From: Geobacteraceae bacterium
GTDB lineage: Bacteria; Desulfobacterota; Desulfuromonadia; Desulfuromonadales; BM103
Assembly: GCA_024641085.1 (NCBI GenBank)
Contig: JAHEDT010000023.1
Location: forward strand, 13,886 to 45,902
Direction: 5' to 3'
DNA length: 32,017 bases
Made by a program: the position numbers and the translations under genes. Below the pieces are notes generated by a model. That model was not told where the DNA came from, made no database searches, and saw nothing but the letters and a program-made list of their open reading frames with translations. Positions 29,185 to 30,368 of this stretch are shown here, one piece after another. Numbering within the stretch: the stretch's first letter is position 1; every line of letters starts with the position of its first letter.

Positions 29185-29331
29185 CTAAAAGCGCTTCTCG
29201 AAGAGAGCGTCGAATTCATTGCCGCAGGCCGGGCAAACAACCTTGCCACGGGCCTGGCCCGGGGTTGTTGCGCAAGCCGTCAGGAGCGCGGTCATGAGAA
29301 GAACCGCAACCAGAACACGAAGGCAATACAT
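29185..29331 (-). CDS. Small lipoprotein with a CPxC motif
   Basis: A 48-residue product: a basic N terminus, a hydrophobic helix and the lipobox LLTAC (lipidated Cys at about 20), then a 28-residue mature tail containing VVCPACGNEFDALFEKRF-type CPxC (C33 and C36). It begins at ATG 29331 with a strong AGGAGGAAA site. Two cysteines in the style of a half zinc ribbon or a redox pair facing the periplasm. I do not recognise a family. It heads the operon with crcB, DUF190 and TerB-like genes under the promoter at 29381-29409. Confidence 0.7.
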   Translation of the reverse strand: MYCLRVLVAVLLMTALLTACATTPGQARGKVVCPACGNEFDALFEKRF

Positions 29332-29380
29332 GAGCTTTTCCTCCTGGCACGACAGGGTTGACTGGCGCCAAACTGGTGAC

Positions 29381-29409
29381 ATTATGCGGTGGGCATGAGC
29401 GACTGTCAA
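29381..29409 (-). promoter_or_regulatory. Sigma70 promoter of the lipoprotein-crcB operon
   Basis: Minus strand: -35 TTGACA (29409-29404), 17-bp spacer, -10 CATAAT (29386-29381). Full-consensus -35 and one mismatch in the -10; it gives a leader of about 42 nt. Confidence 0.8.
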
Positions 29410-29437: not shown

Positions 29438-29466
29438 TTGCACAATGACATTCGATTTGGTATATA
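29438..29466 (+). promoter_or_regulatory. Sigma70 promoter of rpoH
   Basis: TTGCAC (29438-29443), 17-bp spacer, TATATA (29461-29466). Transcription would start inside the CIRCE element at about 29473, the usual arrangement for HrcA repression. Confidence 0.6.
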
Positions 29467-29469
29467 TAT

Positions 29470-29496
29470 TTGGCACTCGTTGTAGTAGAGTGCTAA
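29470..29496 (+). promoter_or_regulatory. CIRCE operator (HrcA-binding inverted repeat) upstream of rpoH
   Basis: Left arm TTGGCACTC (29470-29478), 9-bp spacer, right arm GAGTGCTAA (29488-29496). This matches the consensus TTAGCACTC-N9-GAGTGCTAA with a single change, including the exact spacer. HrcA is the known ligand of CIRCE; hrcA itself is not in this window. Confidence 0.92.
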
Positions 29497-29522
29497 AAAT
29501 CGATTTACAAGGTATAAATTTA

Positions 29523-30368
29523 ATGCGTACGCTGAATTTACCGATCACGACCGATACCTTTGAACATTACATGGTCCAGGTCAACCGCTTCGACCTGCTC
29601 AGTGCGGAACAGGAGTACGACCTCGCCGTCCGGCACCTGCAGAACGGCGACATGGAAGCGGCTCACCGGCTGATCTGTGCCAACCTGCGTTTCGTCGTCA
29701 AAGTCGCCAACGAATACCGCGGCTATGGCCTGCGCCTGCTCGACCTCGTCCAGGAGGGCAACATTGGCCTGATGATGGCCGTCAAAAAGTTTGACCCGAT
29801 GCGCGGGACACGGCTGATCACCTATGCCGTCTGGTGGATCCGCGCCTACATCCAGAACTACATCATGCGCAGCTGGTCGCTGGTTAAAATCGGCACCACC
29901 CAGATGCAGAAGAAGCTTTTTTTCAAGTTGGCCCAGACGCGCAACGCCCTGCGTAATCTGACCGGCTCGGAGCAGATCGAGGAGATCGCCAACGAACTTG
30001 AAGTCAACCAGCAAGTGGTGGCTGAAATGACTCAGCGTATGGGCCGTCGCGACGCCTCTCTCGATGTCGAATTGACCGAGGGCGAGGGCTATACGCTGCT
30101 CAATACCCTGGCCGACGAGAGCAGCAACCAGGAAGAACTGCTCCTGGCTCATGAGGAGCAGCGCCTCAATGCCGAACGCACATCGGCCGCCCTGGCTGTC
30201 CTGAAACCCCGGGAACGTCAGATCATCGAACAGAGGATCCTCGCCGAGGCGCCGAGCACCCTGCAGGATCTCGCTGACGAATTCGACATCAGTCGCGAGC
30301 GGGTTCGCCAGATCGAGCAGAATGCTCTGCGCAAACTGAGGACCGCGATCTCTTTGCCGCTAGATTGA
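29523..30368 (+). CDS. rpoH: RpoH heat-shock sigma factor (sigma32)
   Basis: A 281-residue sigma70-family protein, typical for RpoH. Regions: 1.2-like start (FDLLSAEQEYDLAVRHL), 2.1-2.2 (NLRFVVKVANEYRGYGL), 2.3-2.4 (RLITYAVWWIRAYIQNYIM), the RpoH box QKKLFFKLAQTR that separates sigma32 from other sigma factors, and region 4.2 (LADEFDISRERVRQIEQNALRKL). The ATG at 29523 follows AAGG; the longer frame upstream crosses the CIRCE element and was rejected. Transcription is likely controlled by HrcA through that element, so two heat-shock systems are linked in series. Followed by bamD under its own promoter. Confidence 0.95.
   Translation: MRTLNLPITTDTFEHYMVQVNRFDLLSAEQEYDLAVRHLQNGDMEAAHRLICANLRFVVKVANEYRGYGLRLLDLVQEGNIGLMMAVKKFDPMRGTRLITYAVWWIRAYIQNYIMRSWSLVKIGTTQMQKKLFFKLAQTRNALRNLTGSEQIEEIANELEVNQQVVAEMTQRMGRRDASLDVELTEGEGYTLLNTLADESSNQEELLLAHEEQRLNAERTSAALAVLKPRERQIIEQRILAEAPSTLQDLADEFDISRERVRQIEQNALRKLRTAISLPLD

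Follow-up and report, generated by a model that had tools for sequence, protein, structure and literature searches.

We report herein that the heat-shock sigma factor gene rpoH of a Geobacteraceae bacterium has a CIRCE element, the putative operator of HrcA, at its start, and that rpoH is very probably under the control of HrcA. Judging from the sequence of the region, we hold with considerable confidence that this operator is built into an rpoH promoter of the sigma-70 type, and that HrcA would repress rpoH directly and release it together with groESL and hrcA-dnaK. Within the window, by which we mean the whole stretch of 32,017 nucleotides that was analysed, positions 29470-29496 of the + strand read TTGGCACTC-GTTGTAGTA-GAGTGCTAA, an inverted repeat whose arms (29470-29478 and 29488-29496) are exactly 9 bp apart. 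Seventeen of the 18 arm positions agree with the consensus TTAGCACTC-N9-GAGTGCTAA. The CIRCE that the first-pass annotation had placed upstream of rpoH, with a 9-bp spacing and one base off consensus, is thus confirmed by pattern match as well as by conservation. It is the sole match in the whole window at up to three mismatches, and 100 dinucleotide-preserving shuffles of the window gave none at that threshold. The offset of CIRCE to the ATG is -53.

The gene that follows (29523..30368, + strand) encodes a protein of 281 aa, which is identified as the heat-shock sigma factor sigma-32 by TIGR02392 and by an identity of about 50-91% to its relatives in the class. The whole protein scores 336.7 bits with this RpoH equivalog model (cut-off, 323.1), and other sigma models stay under their cut-offs (RpoS, 192.3 of 378.7; the best RpoD model, 154.4 of 572). 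A longer in-frame alternative, with a TTG start at 29358, exists upstream of the ATG at 29523, but it is unlikely to be the gene, because 25 of 29 related loci align from residue 1 of the ATG frame. By eye, AAGG at 29509..29512 (+ strand), 10 nt 5' of the ATG, is a possible ribosome-binding site. A small minus-strand frame of 48 aa (window 29185-29331), divergent from rpoH, below the length limit of the ORF list and translated by eye, has a lipoprotein-like start and a CPACG motif.

The candidate promoter consists of a -35-like hexamer, TTGCAC (29438..29443, + strand), assigned by sequence and having a TTG start that is conserved in the class, and a -10-like hexamer, TATATA (29461..29466, + strand), which lies 17 bp past the -35 and 3 bp ahead of CIRCE. 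The -35 of this pair is a poor one. A consensus promoter scan did not list the pair and listed instead a + strand pair at 29358-29385, so the TTGCAC/TATATA call rests on conservation. The pair listed by the scan, TTGACT-N16-CATTAT (29358..29385, 9 of 12 consensus positions), could drive HrcA-independent transcription of rpoH, and transcripts from it would have to traverse CIRCE.

The first-pass annotation had made its reading depend on the presence of hrcA in the genome, and the gene is there: a search of the whole assembly (3.5 Mb, 151 contigs, completeness 99.5) found the HrcA domain PF01628 at 219.8 bits (218.5 bits in a second scan). The hrcA frame (346 aa) has a CIRCE upstream and heads a row with grpE-, dnaK- and dnaJ-like frames (L131), and another CIRCE precedes groES- and groEL-like frames (L132); gene names in this regulon other than HrcA and RpoH come from translations by eye and not from family scans. 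At up to three mismatches the genome holds three CIRCE places, each with one mismatch, against one match for a backward-read control pattern, and these lie upstream of hrcA-grpE-dnaK-dnaJ, groESL and rpoH. Among the matches listed, comparison by eye revealed no clear difference in mismatch number between rpoH and the other sites. With hrcA present under a CIRCE of its own and three CIRCE places in all, HrcA therefore has three predicted target operons, rpoH included.

Conservation and placement of the operator in the class

RpoH scored above the family cut-off in 29 of 31 related genomes; the rpoH gene or pieces of it were found in 30, and none in G025. These relatives, a class sample of 58 genomes and additional fetched stretches yielded 71 genomes with an rpoH locus, spread over 19 family codes. 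A CIRCE with at most two mismatches lies within 350 bp 5' of rpoH in 70 of these 71 genomes, two of which (G008 and G027) were judged from separate contig pieces, their main rpoH locus being cut. Counted by locus, the site is present in 74 of 77; L050 lacks it, and L019 and L034 are cut by contig ends. When the upstream sequences of all 128 loci were shuffled, the lowest mismatch count was four, reached in 3 of 2560 cases. In a CIRCE-anchored alignment of 35 loci (at most three per family), the arms carry 1.87 bits per column and the loop 0.23; the eight columns 5' of CIRCE carry 0.46 bits, and positions further out 0.12-0.16.

In the RpoH tree, the RpoH of a named Geobacteraceae genome (L155) falls among the rows of family f18, which suggests a class of Geobacter and Desulfuromonas type. 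Within this family, the left arm of the rpoH site reads TTAGCAGTC in 14 of 18 cases (e.g., L062, L092 and L102). The hrcA sites of the same family vary at the right end instead in 7 of 10 cases (GAGTGCTAT). By their sequence, these arm changes are one-armed, target-specific variants of CIRCE.

The position of CIRCE relative to the promoter is nearly fixed. Among the best-scored promoters of the 74 class loci, 69 have a -35 that begins with TTG, 69 have a 17-bp spacer and all 74 have a -10 that begins with TA; CIRCE follows at a distance of 0-3 bp in 59. With a simple sigma-70 scorer, the median gap between -10 and CIRCE is 2 bp at these rpoH loci and 8 bp at 17 hrcA loci (Mann-Whitney p 3.6e-9, a value that overstates the difference because the species are related). 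The hrcA set comprised our own genome and those fetched stretches in which a site could be recognised (16 of 19, the other three being left out); it is drawn mostly from family f18, with four loci from outside the class. The scored gap is 16-17 bp at three of the rpoH loci, and the groES gap of our genome is 10. TTGACA is found in 17 of 17 hrcA promoters, compared with TTGCAC at our rpoH, and the median promoter score (lower is better) is 3 for hrcA and 4 for rpoH. We infer that the rpoH operator sits nearer the start site, at about -3 to +24 here, and on a weaker promoter than at hrcA. Across 80 loci the distance from CIRCE to the ATG varies from 42 to 267, so the position of CIRCE follows the promoter rather than the start codon.

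The single class genome with rpoH but no CIRCE at it, G063 (L050 and L151), has two CIRCE places left, compared with three in G066 of the same family. Upstream of its rpoH, where CIRCE lies in the other genomes, the end of TATATT is overlapped by a different inverted repeat, TGTAAAC-N5-GTTTACA; by its sequence and position, this is possibly an operator swap. All 58 sampled class genomes have hrcA, and 8 of the 58 gave no rpoH match at E 1e-70, namely G054 (family f19) and the seven sampled members of family f8 (G025, G033, G044, G047, G058, G060 and G073). The nearly complete f8 genomes keep hrcA, and G025, without rpoH, keeps two CIRCE places; a loss of rpoH in this family is possible.

Outside the class, 50 rpoH-bearing genomes of the phylum were divided by HrcA and by CIRCE at rpoH: 6 have both, 27 have HrcA without CIRCE, 17 have neither and none has CIRCE without HrcA. 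The site was therefore found in 6 of 33 HrcA-bearing and in 0 of 17 HrcA-less genomes. Two of the latter 17 (family f42) have neither HrcA nor CIRCE with an RpoH near the class type (52-55% identity), and G089 (L121) has HrcA and an RpoH 50% identical to our own, without CIRCE at rpoH. The 27 of 33 HrcA-bearing genomes without the site speak against a strict rule that HrcA controls rpoH.

Mode of control and alternative readings

In the absence of stress, HrcA would occupy CIRCE (about -3 to +24, for a start site 7 bases past the -10) and would block RNA polymerase at rpoH, as it would at hrcA-grpE-dnaK-dnaJ and groESL. HrcA is kept active by GroEL in other bacteria. Unfolded protein would titrate GroEL, whereupon HrcA would let go and the three operons would rise together; the extra GroEL and HrcA would then shut the feedback loop. 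RpoH would itself belong to the HrcA regulon, a level beneath HrcA, and its own targets would come later.

What those targets are bears on a stronger proposal, made in the first-pass annotation, that release of HrcA raises RpoH and so adds a second wave of chaperone genes. Its upper half is well supported, with HrcA placed above rpoH by the presence of hrcA, the three-site regulon, the 70 of 71 class genomes and the 0 of 17 HrcA-less ones; the second wave is so far unsupported, and we lean somewhat against the full cascade while regarding it as possible. RpoH is intact and its operator conserved, and sigma-32-like promoters before dnaK-dnaJ and clp genes are given for G. sulfurreducens by Rodionov et al. 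2004 (PMC545781). In our genome, the exact pattern TTGAA-N13-16-CCCCAT has 12 matches as opposed to 2 for a backward control, and a further candidate lies within grpE, about 510 bp 5' of dnaK, where a CTTGAAA is paired with a partner that has two mismatches. However, none of the 12 exact matches stands before a frame read by eye as a chaperone (two of the 12 have no frame at all). At up to three mismatches, the sigma-32 pattern is absent from the 400 bp 5' of hrcA and of rpoH, and one weak match occurs past the groESL CIRCE. With looser settings, the stretch around the hrcA operon yielded 8 sigma-32-like entries, located at 4 places, a small excess over the shuffled mean of 5.1. These scans used the E. 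coli consensus, which may be ill suited to this RpoH, and did not find a convincing RpoH promoter of the class.

The hsp20-hsp20-clpB operon of our genome (L245 and L280) also counts against the cascade, as it looks sigma-54-dependent from a sigma-54-like element upstream, TGGCAY-N5-TTG. In 16 of 30 clpB loci, our own included, this motif and a TTGCGACGTCGCAA-like palindrome occur no more than 250 bp apart, compared with 0 of 150 shuffles.

Direct repression of rpoH by HrcA competes at a second level with the idea that CIRCE acts chiefly as a 5' stem-loop in the mRNA, affecting stability or translation of the rpoH transcript. CIRCE stem-loops influence mRNA stability in Bacillus, and with a start expected in or beside the left arm, the transcript could include most of the inverted repeat. 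On the other hand, the rpoH leader has no special fold (z -0.04; 89 of 200 shuffles equally good), and the place of CIRCE follows the -10 and not the ATG. Moreover, the stem would be shorter at rpoH because CIRCE is nearer the promoter there than at hrcA. This alternative is unlikely. A structured RNA in the leader was also considered and dropped, as the one microRNA match in Rfam stayed below threshold (17.4 bits; gathering score, 57). That the palindrome is a functionless relic or a product of chance is very improbable, chance being refuted by its presence in 70 of 71 class genomes, by arms of 1.87 bits amid surroundings of 0.12-0.23 and by 0 of 100 window shuffles.

CIRCE at rpoH outside the class and on islands

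A profile scan of named genomes for RpoH, taken as the best 80 of at least 591 confirmed candidates and hence not an unbiased sample, gave 35 loci with a CIRCE of at most two mismatches within 500 bp 5' of rpoH. One is the Geobacteraceae locus L155; the other 34 lie outside the class and carry the labels beta-, gamma- or unspecified proteobacteria, with one Verrucomicrobia. The scan covered RpoH and the stretch upstream of its gene. The genera include Trinickia, Pandoraea, Nitrosomonas, Alcanivorax, Pseudoalteromonas, Dyella, Methylocaldum and Polynucleobacter; Vibrio, Pasteurellaceae and Enterobacterales rows among the best 80 have no CIRCE at rpoH.

In 17 of the 35 loci, at least two of which (L190 and L201) are near copies, the best GGAACTT match (at most two mismatches) begins 16 or 17 bp 5' of CIRCE; the other 18 have none in this register. 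In 13 of these 17, the last bases of the left arm together with the start of the loop spell TCTAA or TCTCA, at the position of a sigma-E -10; GGAACTT and TCTAA are read here against the sigma-E consensus. A register of 16-18 bp was found in 3.4% of shuffles and in 5 of 80 class-type loci. Only this fixed register is informative, because GGAACTT with two mismatches anywhere in 60 bp is common (49.5% of shuffles and 45 of 80 class-type loci). A literature search of titles and abstract openings returned no earlier report of such a sigma-E/CIRCE overlap, which we do not claim to be unreported. The rpoH upstream region of Xanthomonas pisi (L218) has, after a GGAACTT, a CIRCE-like repeat with symmetrically altered arms (GCAGTC/GACTGC) and five mismatches.

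On a FastTree of 162 RpoH rows, the CIRCE label needs 11 changes (shuffled mean, 52.6), at least three of them forced by starred branches; 11 is slightly high because L019 was counted as lacking the site though it is cut by a contig end. CIRCE-bearing rows fall mainly in two regions of the tree. There may have been one early origin of CIRCE at rpoH followed by losses; separate origins are suggested by the different promoter types only.

A second CIRCE-bearing rpoH occurs in G055 and G057 (family f18) and in G050 (family f20), on a heat-shock island (L149:4400-10000; also L147 and L148). The island rpoH is divergent from three HSP20 genes and from genes for a DnaJ-type protein, a MerR_2-type protein and a trypsin/PDZ protease. 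G055 and G050 are 100% identical over 7.5 kb, as far as the fetched sequence reaches, and 99.95% identical over the adjoining 1.95 kb with rpoH; in G055 (L147), the two parts are separated by a 1.3-kb insert that carries a transposase gene. The corresponding parts of G057 are 98% and 91% identical to those of G055, and G035 has a more distant version of the island, with CIRCE. From the near-identity across families and the transposase, the island is probably mobile.

Taken together, these observations lead us to a broader proposal, finely balanced and held tentatively, that rpoH is, as a widespread rule, under the control of HrcA. Such control would act on a sigma-70-type promoter with CIRCE past the -10, or, in many beta- and gamma-proteobacteria, on a sigma-E-like promoter (GGAACTT-N16/17-TCTAA or similar) with the end of the CIRCE left arm within the -10, and islands would plug into the HrcA of their host. 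If the sigma-E/CIRCE composite is real, rpoH would be a logic gate, calling for an active envelope-stress sigma factor and a released HrcA at once.

Comparison with known systems

The first-pass annotation had allowed that the wiring may be known in relatives, and it had in fact been predicted: Table 8 of Rodionov et al. 2004 (PMC545781) gives a CIRCE at -51 of rpoH, and the same three HrcA operons, in Geobacter sulfurreducens. The rpoH site appears in that table for G. sulfurreducens only, and not for G. metallireducens or Desulfuromonas species. Relative to that listing, what is added here is the spread through the class, the shift in geometry, the overlap with a sigma-E-like promoter and the probably mobile copy, for none of which we claim priority. 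As far as the table goes, the operator, the gene and the three-operon regulon are alike in the two genomes, and the site is at -51 there and -53 here. In contrast to the listing of a single species, CIRCE is found in 70 of 71 genomes of the class, at a near-fixed place past the -10.

HrcA and CIRCE control groESL and hrcA-dnaK in many bacteria. The system at hand shares with these the consensus, the 9-bp spacer and an hrcA that itself bears CIRCE; it differs in that the target is a sigma factor gene and that CIRCE lies about 2 bp, not about 8 bp, past the -10.

In E. coli, rpoH is controlled through several promoters, including the sigma-E-dependent P3, through an RNA thermometer and through DnaK and FtsH. 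The gene product is the same, whereas our rpoH has a sigma-70-type promoter with an operator, and a leader without a special fold. PF01628 found no match in an E. coli control genome. The contrast drawn with E. coli in the first-pass annotation, that rpoH there has no HrcA input, was fair but narrow, as 34 RpoH loci outside the class also have CIRCE. Repression by HrcA and activation by sigma-32, both classical controls of the heat-shock response, are commonly presented as alternatives or as inputs acting in parallel. If HrcA stands above rpoH, the level of rpoH in metal-reducing bacteria should track the load on GroEL by way of HrcA. Natural comparisons are offered by a family in which no rpoH was found, by a genome in which CIRCE is missing at rpoH alone and by islands that bring in a second copy. 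If this control prevails in the class and in many beta- and gamma-proteobacteria, then the E. coli scheme without HrcA would be the special case.
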